A DNA stretch of 23,212 nucleotides from a virus. The translations under genes were made by a program, and so were the position numbers. The notes below the pieces were generated by a model. It searched no databases. It was not told where the DNA came from and worked only from the letters and a program-made list of their open reading frames with translations. Location: positions 1-23,212 of the IMG/VR virus record IMGVR_UViG_3300008107_000912; one strand, written 5' to 3'. Each line of letters opens with the position of its first letter. Within the stretch, counting starts at the first letter, position 1. Shown piece by piece: positions 10,829-15,484 of this stretch.

Positions 10829-12898
10829 ATGTCTGATTTAAAGGGGTATACCCCGATTTATAGTTTTCCGTATCCTCTTTCTGGGGATAGTGTTGCTAAT
10901 ACTTATTTGCGTATTCAGGAGTTGGCTGAGCGTATTGAGTCTACTTATACGATTCTTGATATTAATCTTAGTGGTGCTACTAAGTTGATGCAGCAGGGTG
11001 ATGCGGCTGGTGGGGATCTTTCTGGGACGTATCCTAGTCCTAGTATTGCTAGTGGCGCGGTTAATAATGCTAAGATTGCTGCTGATGCTGCTATTGCGTA
11101 TTCTAAACTTAATCTTGCTAATAGTATTGTTAGTAGTGATATTGTTGATGGGACTATTACTGGTTCTGATATTGTGAGTAGTGTGAGTCTTGGTGGTAAT
11201 CCTACTACGACTACGCAGAGTGTGGTTGATAATTCTTCTCGTATTGCTACGACGGAGTTTGTTCAGGATTTGTTTGCTGAGTCGCAGGGTACTGCGTTTG
11301 ATACTCATGTGCAGAATGTTACTAATGCTCATGATATTGATATTCCTAGTATTGTGTATACGACGGATACGGGTACTGTTACTAGTACTATGATTGCTAA
11401 TAATACTATTGTTAATGCGGATGTTAATACGGCTGCTGCGATTAGTTATTCTAAGTTGGCGCTTAATAATAGTATTTTGGAGTCTGATTTGGCGTTTAGT
11501 ATTGCTACTCAGGCAGAGTTGGATGCTCATACTGGTGCTTCTACGAGTGTGCATGGTATTACGAATACGGCTAATCTTGTGTATACAAGTGATTCTCGTC
11601 TTACTGATGCTCGTACTCCTACTGGTGGTGCTGGCGGAGTGTTGTCGGGTACGTATCCTAATCCGGGTTTTGCTGTGGATATGGCTACTCAGTCTGAACT
11701 TGATACTCACGCCTCGGATACTACTAGTGTTCATGGTATTGCTGACACTAGTGTCTTAGCGACCGCTACGGATGTCTCTACGGCCGTTTCTACGCACTCT
11801 AGCGATACGACTAGCGTTCACGGCATTGCTGATACGAGCGCCTTAGCGACGGCTACAGATGTGTCTACGGCGGTGTCTACTCACTCGTCTGATACTACTA
11901 GTGTGCATGGTATTAGTAATACTGCTGATCTGGTTCTTACTGGTGATGCTCGGTTGAGTGATGCGCGTACTCCTACGAGTCATGCTGGTACGCATGTTCC
12001 GGGCGGATCTGATGTTCTTGATTATACTAAGATTATTGGTTATGGAACATCATTGCCTACTTGGAATGCTACTACTCATCCTGCCGGTGTGTTGTGGGTT
12101 GTTAATACTGTTGGCGAGCCTTACTCGTTGTATCGTAGTGATGGTACGAGTGCTTGGAAGCAGGTTGGTGGTGGCGGTGCTAGTGTTACTGCTAGTGATA
12201 CGGCTCCTTCTAGTCCGACTAGTGGCGCTTTGTGGTTTGATTCTACTACGGGTAAGACTTTTATTTGGTATGTGGATGGGTCTTCTAATCAGTGGGTTGA
12301 GGTTGGTGAGGCTAGTCAGTTAGCAATTCCTTCGCATGGTTCGTCGCATGTGCGTGGTGGTAGTGATATTATCGACGGTGATCGTGTTCAAGTTGATTAT
12401 GTTCCTACTAATTATACTCGTAATGCTGCGGCTAGTGGTGCTGGTGATGTTACTGATTTGACGGCTAATCTTAGTGGTATTGATAATAAATTTAACGCTT
12501 TACCACGCGGAGTAATGGCATATGTAACTAGTACCGCAACAACAGCGGTAACAACTACAAATACTGTTTATTTAACTTCACCGGCATTTACAGCAGTTGC
12601 GGGACGACTTTACAAAATTTCGTACTATGAAGGTGGAATTGGGCCAGCCGGGGCAACGGGAGCCGTTCTTATTACGCTCAGAATTAACCTTACTAACACG
12701 GCTGGAACTCAATATGGGTATGGCAACTTTCCAAGTGCTGGCGGAGGTAATAACACTTCTTGTTTTACTAGCATTATTACAACGCTTGCTGCTGGTAGTA
12801 CAGTAATTGTTGGAGCGGCAGCAATTTCTACGGGTAGTGCTAACCGAGGTGGCGGAATTACCTCGTGGCTTGCAGTTGAAGATATTGGCCCAGCATAA
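10829..12898 (+). CDS. Tail fibre 1 with tandem SVHG repeats and jelly-roll-like receptor-binding tip
   Basis: The ATG at 10829 has GGAGG six bases upstream; the ATG at 10823 abuts that site and is rejected. The 689 residues begin MSDLKGYTPIYSFPYPLSGD, probably the virion-attachment part. A long shaft follows with GDLSGTYPSPSIA, KIAADAAIAYSKL and three HxxDTTSVHGI repeats (residues about 294-362). Then come a PGGSDVLDYTKI segment and IPSHGSSHVRGGSDIIDGDR. The C-terminal 135 residues (from about 554) look like a C1q/TNF-type jelly roll: AVAGRLYKISYYEGGIGPAG, LRINLTNTAGTQYGYG, ending WLAVEDIGPA. This ending is common in actinophage fibres. The tip is encoded with A/C-ending codons (gca, aca, gta, tta) unlike the shaft, which suggests acquisition. 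It should recognise the host surface. Confidence 0.8.
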   Translation: MSDLKGYTPIYSFPYPLSGDSVANTYLRIQELAERIESTYTILDINLSGATKLMQQGDAAGGDLSGTYPSPSIASGAVNNAKIAADAAIAYSKLNLANSIVSSDIVDGTITGSDIVSSVSLGGNPTTTTQSVVDNSSRIATTEFVQDLFAESQGTAFDTHVQNVTNAHDIDIPSIVYTTDTGTVTSTMIANNTIVNADVNTAAAISYSKLALNNSILESDLAFSIATQAELDAHTGASTSVHGITNTANLVYTSDSRLTDARTPTGGAGGVLSGTYPNPGFAVDMATQSELDTHASDTTSVHGIADTSVLATATDVSTAVSTHSSDTTSVHGIADTSALATATDVSTAVSTHSSDTTSVHGISNTADLVLTGDARLSDARTPTSHAGTHVPGGSDVLDYTKIIGYGTSLPTWNATTHPAGVLWVVNTVGEPYSLYRSDGTSAWKQVGGGGASVTASDTAPSSPTSGALWFDSTTGKTFIWYVDGSSNQWVEVGEASQLAIPSHGSSHVRGGSDIIDGDRVQVDYVPTNYTRNAAASGAGDVTDLTANLSGIDNKFNALPRGVMAYVTSTATTAVTTTNTVYLTSPAFTAVAGRLYKISYYEGGIGPAGATGAVLITLRINLTNTAGTQYGYGNFPSAGGGNNTSCFTSIITTLAAGSTVIVGAAAISTGSANRGGGITSWLAVEDIGPA
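11708..11914 (+). repeat. Tandem 87-bp coding repeats (29 aa) in fibre 1
   Basis: Two full units start at 11708 and 11795 and a partial third (33 bases) starts at 11882. The encoded units (HASDTTSVHGIADTSVLATA TDVSTAVST and HSSDTTSVHGIADTSALATA TDVSTAVST) match at 27 of 29 residues. The DNA differs at about 19 of 87 positions, most of them synonymous. A related unit (HTGASTSVHGITNTANLV) lies earlier near 11526. Confidence 0.85.
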
Positions 12899-12924
12899 TG
12901 ATTATTTTTAGAAAGGAGCACTAA

Positions 12925-14346
12925 TTGGCTATCAATTTCCCAGACAGTCCCACCACGGGACAAATCTTCACAAGCGGTTCTACCTCTTGGATCTATGATG
13001 GAGTCAAATGGGGACTCAATACTAACATTGCAGTCTCTAATGATAGTATGCCCGTAGGGGCTATCCTTTGGTATGCTAATACTAGTACTGCTCCTCCGGG
13101 TTGGATTGCTGCTGATGGTAGTGCTGTGTCTCGTACGACGTATGCTACTCTTTTTACGGTGATTGGTACTACTTATGGTAGTGGTGATGGTAGCACGACG
13201 TTTAACGTGCCTAGCGTGGCTGCTACGACGGGTAAGTATTATATTCGATATACTACTAGTCTTGGTACGGTGACGACTACGAGTCTTTCTACGAGTCCTG
13301 TGGGGACTATGCTTGATTGGCCTACTACGTCTAGTTATCCTACGGGATACTTACGCGCTGATGGTAGTGCCGTGTCGCGTACTAGTTATGCTGATTTGTT
13401 TGCGCTTATTGGTACTACGTATGGTACTGGTGATGGTTCTACTACGTTTAATCTTCCTAATCTTGTGGCTGCTGGTAGTGGTAGTCCTGTGAAGATTATT
13501 AAGGCTAGTCTTGGTGGTATTGTTGAGCCTAGTACTGTTGCTCACGCTGTTAGTCATACTCAAGGCGGATCAGATGTTATTACTGTTACTGGTAATCAAA
13601 TTGATAATTATCAGACGTATCGTAATGCTATTATTAATGGCAACATGAACGTGTGGCAACGAAGCACTAGTAGCACTACACTTGGTTATACTACTGCTGA
13701 TCGCTGGTGGATTAATAATGGTGGTGGAACAACTACAATTGCACGAGAGGCTACAATTGTTCCAGCAAGGTTTCAGTATGCTATGAAATGGACGCAGGCT
13801 ACTACGGCTAATGTTGTAGGTATTCAATCAATTGAGTCTATTAATTGTACTCATTTAGCAGGACAGACGGTTACTGTTTCCGGGTATTTTGCTGCTTCTG
13901 CGTCTACTAGTTTTACTATTGACTTATTATCTTCTACTTCTGTTGATATTCAGTTAGAAGTGGGTAGTACGGCTACTCCTTATGAATTCGAGCCTTTTGA
14001 GACTACTTTGAGGAAATGCCAACGGTATTATTTTAGAATTGCTGGAGGACATATTTACACGCGCCTTGGTATTGGTCATGCGTTTTCGACCACTAACGCA
14101 GTACCAATGATACTGCATCCTGTGCCTATGCGTTCGGCTCCAACCGTTTGCGAATCAGCAAATTTAGGACTGTACGCAGGCGGCGGCGTTATTGCGGCTA
14201 CACAAGCGGCTTCGCCGTTTGATTCAGCAAATCCAAACAGTAGTACAATTACAATGGTTGCTACCGGATTAACAATCGGAACAGTATATGCCTTGTTGTT
14301 TAATGCCAACATCAACGGCTATCTTGGTTTAGGTGCAGAACTTTAA
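12925..14346 (+). CDS. Tail fibre 2 with two tail-collar domains and QLEVG hinge
   Basis: A TTG start at 12925 follows GAAAGGAG with good spacing and gives 473 residues beginning (M)AINFPDSPTTGQIFTSGST. Two phage tail-collar domains lie in tandem at about 42-109 (MPVGAILWYANTSTAPPGWI...GDGSTTFNVP) and 124-190 (SPVGTMLDWPTTSSYPTGYL...GDGSTTFNLP). A domain starting NAIINGNMNVWQRS at about 234 follows. It reaches the hinge IQLEVGSTATPYEFEPFETT LRKCQRYY at 342-369. This middle domain is about 110 residues shorter than its counterpart in the next gene and is probably internally deleted. The 104-residue tip (370-473) ends GLGAEL. Codons switch from native to A/C-ending at the first 35 residues, in part of the middle domain, and exactly after the hinge. 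Confidence 0.8.
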   Translation: MAINFPDSPTTGQIFTSGSTSWIYDGVKWGLNTNIAVSNDSMPVGAILWYANTSTAPPGWIAADGSAVSRTTYATLFTVIGTTYGSGDGSTTFNVPSVAATTGKYYIRYTTSLGTVTTTSLSTSPVGTMLDWPTTSSYPTGYLRADGSAVSRTSYADLFALIGTTYGTGDGSTTFNLPNLVAAGSGSPVKIIKASLGGIVEPSTVAHAVSHTQGGSDVITVTGNQIDNYQTYRNAIINGNMNVWQRSTSSTTLGYTTADRWWINNGGGTTTIAREATIVPARFQYAMKWTQATTANVVGIQSIESINCTHLAGQTVTVSGYFAASASTSFTIDLLSSTSVDIQLEVGSTATPYEFEPFETTLRKCQRYYFRIAGGHIYTRLGIGHAFSTTNAVPMILHPVPMRSAPTVCESANLGLYAGGGVIAATQAASPFDSANPNSSTITMVATGLTIGTVYALLFNANINGYLGLGAEL

Positions 14347-14353
14347 GGAGGTG
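14333..14353 (+). repeat. 21-bp direct repeat, copy 1 (end of fibre 2)
   Basis: This segment holds the last codons (AEL), the stop codon and the following AAGGAGGTG ribosome site, and is identical to 15464-15484 at the end of fibre 3. The identity crosses the stop codon into the untranslated spacer, so protein conservation alone does not explain it. It is a possible recombination site for exchanging or deleting a whole fibre gene (1131 bp between copies). Confidence 0.8.
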
Positions 14354-14355
14354 TT

Positions 14356-15477
14356 ATGACTGTTATCGGTCATGGGTATGATGATAATGTAGGCGCTCCT
14401 GCATTTCGTAATAGAATTACAAATGGTAATATGCGCGTAAGCCAACGAGGAACAAGTTTTTCTTTTCCTGCTGGTGGAGGTACTAACTATTACCCAGTAG
14501 ATAGATTTCATATTAAAGACTATACTTGGTCTTCTGGCAGTAATATTACTGTTAGCAATGATACAACTGTATATCCTAGCAGTTTTACTAATAGTCTTAA
14601 AGTAGCCACAGGCGCAACTGGACTTACGTTTGCTTCTGGTGGTTGGCTTGGAATTACACAAAAAATTGAAGGCTATAATATTTCTGATCTTTACAACAAA
14701 AGTATTACGCTTTCTTTTTGGGTTCGTTCAAGTGTAACAGGTACTTACAGTGTTTCTTTTACTAATACTGATGTTGGCGTTGTCACTCCAGATCGAGCAT
14801 ACGTAGCAGCATATACAATTAATGCGGCTAATACGTGGGAATTTAAAACTATTACAACTAGTCTGGCTACTGCAACTGCATCTGGTACTTGGAATACTAC
14901 TACGGGTATTGGTTTGCACGTTGAGTGGGGATTAGGTTCTAATGCAAATAGGCGTACTGATACTTACAATAGTGATTGGACTAATTGGTCTTCTATTGGA
15001 TGGCAACGTACTACTCAAACGCAATGGGCTAGTACGGCTAATGCTACTTTTTATATTACTGGTGTTCAGTTAGAGGCTGGTCCGGTTGCTACTCCTTTCG
15101 AGTTTGAGCCTTTTGAGACTACGTTGAGAAAATGTCAACGATACTTTGAAAAAACATATGATTTAGGAACTGCTATTGGAGCGGCTACAGCAAATGGGTC
15201 TTTAGGTAATGACTTTATGGTTGGAGCAGATCATAATGGTTATATTGCTCAACGAATACCGTTTTTTATTACAAAAAGAATTACAAATGGAACTTTAACT
15301 GTATATGATAATGCTGGTAATGCTGGAAAAGTTACTAAGTATACGGCTAGTGGGGCTGGTATAAATAATATTACTCCTACTATTTCAGATATTTCAGAAC
15401 GTGCTTTTCGTATTTATATTGTATCACAGACTTGTGTAGGTTTTACAACACATTATACAATTAGTGCAGAACTTTAA
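14356..15477 (+). CDS. Tail fibre 3 / receptor-binding protein with intact INGNM domain and QLEAG hinge
   Basis: The ATG at 14356 follows AAGGAGGTGTT. The 373 residues begin MTVIGHGYDDNVGAPAFRNR and enter almost at once the 'RITNGNMRVSQRGTSF...YYPVDRFHI' domain. This is a carbohydrate-binding-module-like fibre domain known from many phages; it runs with strands KSITLSFWVRSSVTGTYSVS and FKTITTSLATATASGTWN to FYITGVQLEAGPVATPFEFE. The hinge EPFETTLRKCQRYF ends at 264. The tip (265-373) holds IPFFITKRITNGTLTVYDNA and ends HYTISAEL. It lacks collar domains and an obvious shaft, so it probably joins other fibre proteins or acts as a short spike. Much of it uses A-ending codons (gca, aca, gga, caa) unlike structural neighbours, suggesting transfer. 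Receptor binding is inferred. Confidence 0.75.
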   Translation: MTVIGHGYDDNVGAPAFRNRITNGNMRVSQRGTSFSFPAGGGTNYYPVDRFHIKDYTWSSGSNITVSNDTTVYPSSFTNSLKVATGATGLTFASGGWLGITQKIEGYNISDLYNKSITLSFWVRSSVTGTYSVSFTNTDVGVVTPDRAYVAAYTINAANTWEFKTITTSLATATASGTWNTTTGIGLHVEWGLGSNANRRTDTYNSDWTNWSSIGWQRTTQTQWASTANATFYITGVQLEAGPVATPFEFEPFETTLRKCQRYFEKTYDLGTAIGAATANGSLGNDFMVGADHNGYIAQRIPFFITKRITNGTLTVYDNAGNAGKVTKYTASGAGINNITPTISDISERAFRIYIVSQTCVGFTTHYTISAEL

Positions 15478-15484
15478 GGAGGTG
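15464..15484 (+). repeat. 21-bp direct repeat, copy 2 (end of fibre 3)
   Basis: Identical to 14333-14353. It carries the same AEL-stop-Shine-Dalgarno arrangement, here in front of the 82-aa gene. Confidence 0.8.

Follow-up and report, generated by a model that had tools for sequence, protein, structure and literature searches.

Recombination between conserved motifs in the distal tail fibre adhesins of the T-even phages is said, following Tetart et al. in 1998, to swap segments that determine host specificity. The aquatic phage fibre genes considered here resemble those adhesins in that fibre segments appear to be exchanged by recombination at a conserved motif, with host specificity a probable property of the exchanged tips; they differ in that the T-even motifs are glycine-rich repeats within gp38, whereas a single 28-residue hinge here precedes one block of ~105 residues that ends in (A/S)EL. 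In the tailspikes of kutterviruses, the short motif GTTAVSL has been proposed as the site at which paralogous spikes exchange receptor-binding modules (PMC8432352). The likeness lies in a short conserved motif as the place of module exchange between paralogs; that system concerns one genus and beta-helix tailspikes, whereas the hinge occurs in many phage groups, between a body predicted to resemble carbohydrate-binding modules and a small beta tip. In coliphages, conserved DNA motifs flank exchangeable receptor-binding domains, and motif presence is uncorrelated with the number of exchanges (PMC10408124); conserved sequence likewise lies on both sides of the exchangeable domain here, but the joins coincide with the end of the hinge in about eight families.

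Two further lines of work bear on the same genes. The accessible text of a study of marine phage metaviromic islands describes tail fibre and carbohydrate-binding-domain genes as the most variable parts of aquatic phages that otherwise resemble one another, with variation sometimes confined to barely one domain (PMC3909814). Genes of this kind are also those that vary here; the islands, in that text, are gaps in read recruitment, whereas the junction sequence and the block structure are given below. In the accessible text of a work on domain shuffling in receptor-binding proteins, near-identical phages share an N-terminal part and carry unrelated C-terminal domains (PMC10684548); it is a general survey, and that text does not name this hinge and tip family. 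A search of the open-licence literature with the letters of the hinge motif returned nothing relevant, and no paper naming this hinge. Exchange of recognition modules at conserved motifs is already known; the present case is an unusually widespread one with clear joins.

The window, that is, the whole stretch of DNA that was analysed, is the 23,212-base IMG/VR virus record IMGVR_UViG_3300008107_000912. Among its genes are those for a P22-like portal and a major capsid protein and a series for tail fibres; two of the latter, fibres 2 and 3, are the subject of Table 1. These two are, in our judgement, very probably modular adhesins whose tips, and separately whose bodies, are exchanged as blocks joined at the end of the hinge. 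The order of parts in such an adhesin would be arm, carbohydrate-binding-module-like body, 28-residue hinge and ~105-residue tip, with a hinge conserved across aquatic phages; phages would swap the tip, and separately the body, in its entirety. Of the two joins, one would fall where the hinge ends on its 3' side, and the second at the conserved (A/S)EL terminus and the beginning of the following gene, or past them.

Table 1. Parts of the fibre 2 and fibre 3 genes and their exact repeats, in window coordinates
Feature	Position	Strand	Match or structure
Fibre 2 gene, 473 aa: arm with two phage tail collar domains, short body, hinge, tip	12925..14346	+	PF07484 twice, E=2e-35
Fibre 2 body module, 109 aa	13621..13947	+	
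Fibre 2 hinge, IQLEVGSTATPYEFEPFETTLRKCQRYY, residues 342-369	13948..14031	+	
Exact 17-bp repeat GAGCCTTTTGAGACTAC, first copy	13990..14006	+	
Fibre 2 tip, 104 aa	14032..14343	+	
Exact 21-bp repeat, first copy: end of tip 2 (AEL, stop) and Shine-Dalgarno of fibre 3	14333..14353	+	
Fibre 3 gene, 373 aa: 17-aa arm, jelly-roll body, hinge, tip	14356..15477	+	phrog_4492 tail fiber, E=2e-49
Fibre 3 body, predicted carbohydrate-binding-module-like jelly roll	14407..15063	+	CBM4, CBM11, CBM16, CBM22 structures
Fibre 3 hinge, VQLEAGPVATPFEFEPFETTLRKCQRYF, residues 237-264	15064..15147	+	last jelly-roll strand, linker, short helix
Exact 17-bp repeat, second copy	15106..15122	+	
Fibre 3 tip, 109 aa, all-beta	15148..15474	+	
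Exact 21-bp repeat, second copy: end of tip 3 and Shine-Dalgarno of the next gene	15464..15484	+	

The original prediction held that the two fibres share a hinge containing an identical 17-bp stretch, that the tips beyond it are similar in length and unlike in sequence, and that the hinge is a site for exchanging them. Its description of the locus is accurate: the hinge was recovered at the same residues of both proteins, the 17-bp copies are exact and 1116 bp apart, they are in frame with one another because both sit in the same codon phase of genes that are read in the same frame, and the tips are ~19% identical. The hinges are 77% identical over 84 nt; between fibres 2 and 3, the hinges are 79% and the bodies 33% identical. 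The 17-bp identity is, by itself, weak evidence of recent recombination, because the same six residues combined with a strong habit of T- or G-ending codons would often produce it. Fibres 2 and 3 use the same codon at 14 of 21 matched hinge residues, against an expectation of 0.46 from the usage of the two genes (p=0.046); codon sharing in their bodies and tips equals expectation. The longest exact repeat of the whole window is another one, 21 bp long, placed at the far end of both tips and overlooked in the original prediction. With the hinge before each tip and this repeat after it, both tips are blocks with homology on both sides. An invertible tail-fibre segment of the Mu G-segment type was also considered and rejected on its repeats: inverted matches between 11500 and 17500 are weak and no longer than 22 nt, unlike the long inverted repeats that flank such a segment.

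Contigs fetched from IMG/VR supplied the relatives, in which a profile recognised at least 231 non-redundant hinge domains, a conserved motif shared by otherwise different fibre genes. In this set the hinge lies nearly always ~105 residues before the end of the protein (the median tip is 103 residues), and among the matches listed EL closes 203 of the 219 complete tips, preceded by A in 163. Tip identity and body identity are correlated with r=0.11 over 20,470 between-contig pairs among the matches listed; the median tip identity of these pairs stays at 27-28% in every band of body identity from 20% to 80%, and is 23% in the band from 80-90%, which holds three pairs only. The course of divergence along the gene is seen in 395 pairs with 60-70% identical bodies, for which identity is 0.58-0.70 in the body, 0.75 and 0.67 in the two halves of the hinge, and 0.21-0.32 in the tip. 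The loss is a single step: the second hinge half is still at 0.67, and tip residues one to ten are at 0.21, which is also the background obtained from reversed tips. The smooth divergence on both sides of the hinge that the original prediction named as its refutation is contradicted by these relatives. At the DNA level, 27 pairs with near-identical bodies have tips that are either essentially conserved or wholly unalignable. All tips belong to one domain family nonetheless (a profile made from half of them finds 75 of the 76 others and no reversed control), so that the exchanged parts are deeply diverged alleles of one domain, not unrelated domains. The proposal that the hinge is the place of tip exchange is strongly supported by these relatives; that the tip binds the receptor is probable from its position and variability.

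The joins themselves were located by pooling the ends of DNA homology around hinges, with no selection on body or tip. Among the matches listed, 29 of 69 internal 3' homology ends lie at +45 to +105 from the start of the hinge, where ~2 would be expected of a uniform distribution, and the 29 stem from about eight unrelated contig families (grouped by eye). For the clearest pairs, maximum likelihood puts the join mostly between +61 and +96, on a scale on which the hinge extends from 0 to 84. Other ends cluster near the body start and beyond the gene; almost none, in isolated cases among the matches listed, fall inside body or tip. A second junction lies at the start of the body, which carries the motif RNxIINGNM..QR; the body, too, moves as a unit. 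Homology between relatives stops or starts at the hinge motif in contigs and isolates, and many families, independently of one another, as well as cultured phages have exchanged blocks that are joined where the hinge ends. In the relatives, tips have come in from other phages. As to recombination between the two 17-bp copies within this genome, which the original prediction proposed, neither a deletion product nor a form of the phage with swapped tips was seen, and the evidence for exchange between paralogous hinges is indirect.

Most of the examples of exchange are metagenome contigs; isolate genomes matter because such contigs can be chimeric. The Synechococcus phages MC09 (L318), S-N03 (L320) and S-H34 (L321), all complete genomes and all on host strain MW02, each carry an array of six hinge-bearing fibre genes in the regions read. 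In one gene, MC09 and S-H34 have 98% identical bodies and 99% identical downstream DNA on either side of tips that are 17% identical; in one gene of MC09 and S-N03, an 89% identical body is likewise followed by a tip of 17% identity. Conversely, a tip that is 100% identical between MC09 and S-N03 is attached to bodies that are 57% identical, and one that is 95% identical between MC09 and S-H34 is attached to bodies that are 26% identical. The same body with a new tip and the same tip on another body are both present, and therefore both halves of the exchange are seen in cultured phages. Menderaviruses of Stenotrophomonas present tips that are 71% identical on bodies that are 37% identical; such alignable tips on less similar bodies indicate that bodies can change under a conserved tip, and that not all of the variation is replacement of tips. 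The arrays of the three Synechococcus phages contain two hinge types, QLEPGPVATPFEHRPIGTELALCQRYY and QLTATDTPIAFQHEDYATTLRKCQRYF.

A structural model of fibre 3 (pLDDT 83, pTM 0.85) places the hinge at the seam of two domains: it begins with the strand that completes the body, continues through a linker into a short helix, and is followed by an all-beta tip. Foldseek matches the body to 4bj0 (E=8e-6, target TM 0.66) and 1k42 (E=1.3e-4, target TM 0.68) at ~10% sequence identity; as modelled, the fold is a beta jelly roll like that of carbohydrate-binding modules of families 4, 11, 16 and 22, and sugar binding is putative. A comparison of viral folds finds the layout of body, hinge and tip to be common to tail fibres of Synechococcus, Prochlorococcus, Acidovorax, Ralstonia, Burkholderia and Xanthomonas phages. 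The model of the body, hinge and tip of fibre 2 is poor (pLDDT 67.5, pTM 0.47), and its fold matches were left out.

The closest contigs display the same modularity. One (L003) matches the window over 12,932 bases at 99.98% identity; it is the only near-identical relative, and stops at window position 12932, so that an alternative tip for the window phage was not found. IMG/VR searches also returned no close relative for the window tips or for the segment from body to tip of fibre 2: the best relative of the fibre 2 tip is 49% identical and sits on an unrelated body (in L026), and for the fibre 3 tip no close one was found. A second contig (L004) is ~89% identical to the window over its first 7.9 kb of alignment; relative to fibre 3, the first 90 bases of its gene are 81% and its hinge 92% identical as DNA, while body and tip are unalignable as DNA. 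A third (L056) combines the body type of fibre 3 (75%) with the arm type of fibre 2 (78%) and another tip, and L026 combines the fibre 3 arm, the L004 body (94%) and the aforementioned relative of the fibre 2 tip. Arm, body and tip are thus combined differently around a hinge that is kept at 70-96% identity.

What other processes might generate this pattern? Tips that are homologous and highly diverged could have diverged in place, without exchange, through very fast mutation, positive selection or a diversity-generating retroelement; that near-identical bodies bear a tip either 92-100% identical or unalignable, with no intermediates in the DNA pairs examined, and that isolates carry the same tip on unlike bodies make this scarcely credible. 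(A retroelement target was also rejected as a candidate in its own right: localised substitutions are absent, and where the genes are near-identical their tips either match almost completely or cannot be aligned, with no sign of point mutation.) The notion that apparent swaps are assembly chimeras created at a conserved hinge draws on the capacity of short-read assemblers to fuse different genomes at repeats, and on one contig (L102) that starts within a body and whose hinge is identical over 96 bp to both of its putative parents; the triple that it forms with L090 and L093 resembles a perfect single crossover and was set aside as a possible chimera. For the isolates the notion is contradicted by joins of the same kind in complete genomes of cultured phages; in L116, L117 and L118, which come from different samples, 97-99% identity resumes beyond the tip, and the hinges of most swapped pairs are 88-95% identical rather than identical, which leaves it very improbable in general. 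Recent import of tips from a donor with different codon usage should leave a composition break at each hinge, and a switch from T- or G-ending to other codons at both hinges had indeed been claimed. The fibre 2 tip does differ from its own body in T/G-ending codons (0.74 in the body, 0.51 in the tip; p=0.0015), but fibre 3 has no such break (0.68 and 0.67; p=0.80), and the best segmentation of the fibre region, with breaks at 12488, 13066, 13543, 15466 and 15606, chooses neither hinge, keeping whole one atypical stretch, 13543-15465, that runs from near the fibre 2 body module, not from the hinge, and takes in fibre 3 up to where the gene after it begins. The claimed break is weak in fibre 2 and absent in fibre 3; neither third codon positions nor segmentation sustains a link between hinge and composition switch, the composition argument therefore cannot carry the interpretation of exchange, and foreign-composition tips are improbable.

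There are two readings of how the joins arise. Joining would occur mostly by homologous recombination inside hinge DNA, also between paralogous hinges of one genome, and the tip would bind the host receptor, so that its exchange would alter host recognition. A rival account is that recombination is mostly illegitimate and takes place anywhere, only joins that leave domains intact surviving, with the hinge conserved for folding or coupling and not as a recombination handle. Clustering of joins at a domain boundary is expected under it too; the hinge, a last jelly-roll strand and a helix, is a natural structural seam; the divergence within hinges of swapped pairs follows no consistent pattern; and homology ends form a second cluster at the body start, so that seams in general, not the hinge motif alone, mark joins. 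What protein-level selection does not predict is the excess of synonymous codon identity in paralogous hinges within, and not between, genomes. Within 23 genomes among the matches listed, synonymous codons are shared more often than expected, the excess being 0.16 for hinges, 0.08 for bodies and 0.04 for tips (hinge over body, p=0.012; hinge over tip, p=0.0015); between genomes with unlike bodies, the excess is the same in hinges (0.019) and bodies (0.017), so that no general DNA constraint acts on the hinge. In some paralogs, moreover, hinge DNA is almost the same while the sequences on both sides of it are unrelated (L198), which also counts against selection at domain boundaries as the entire explanation; we consider that account possible, though rather unlikely. 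The within-genome excess suggests DNA exchange between the hinges of one genome and is not proof of it. For the protein sequences, the rise in hinge identity within genomes falls short of significance (p=0.11; hinge domains among the matches listed), with suggestive homogenisation in three (L157, L198 and L276). Homogenisation of hinges within genomes is possibly a new feature. Only tentatively would we go on to propose that the hinge serves specifically as a recombination handle present in several copies, with its DNA kept alike among the two to six hinge-bearing fibre genes of one phage. Tips would then be traded within a phage and, by way of a single shared adapter, with co-infecting phages of different families, all drawing from a common pool of tip alleles that spans the environment.

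The bacteria that a phage can enter are set by its tail fibres, and most of the genes for these in aquatic phages bear no annotation beyond hypothetical or tail fibre. A junction as widespread as the end of the hinge allows the tip of any such gene to be delimited from sequence alone; tip alleles can then be counted in metagenomes, shared tips linked to shared hosts, and the speed at which recognition modules move between phage groups measured. Exchange at this junction also accounts for part of the long-noticed variability of the host-recognition islands of aquatic phages.

Some observations on the window stand apart from these considerations. The end of L003 coincides with the start of fibre 2 (12932), as expected if the population varies from there. 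The fibre 2 body, at 109 residues, compares with 200-215 in relatives; about half of the jelly roll is absent and the reading frame is open (13621-13947). Just upstream, at 13543-13620, lies a junction past which the collar arms of fibre 2 orthologs (84-85% identical, in L004 and L005) run beyond SH..GSD into different C-termini without a hinge. Between 942 and 22824 the structural genes strongly favour codons ending in T or G, to the extreme of a fraction of 0.92 to 1.0 in several of them. Over the C-terminal part of fibre 1, which begins near ALPRGVMAY, together with the first part of fibre 2 (12488-13065), the fraction of such codons drops from 0.92 to 0.51; this change at 12488, in the fibre 1 tip, is the sharpest drop of any tip and stronger than that at either hinge.
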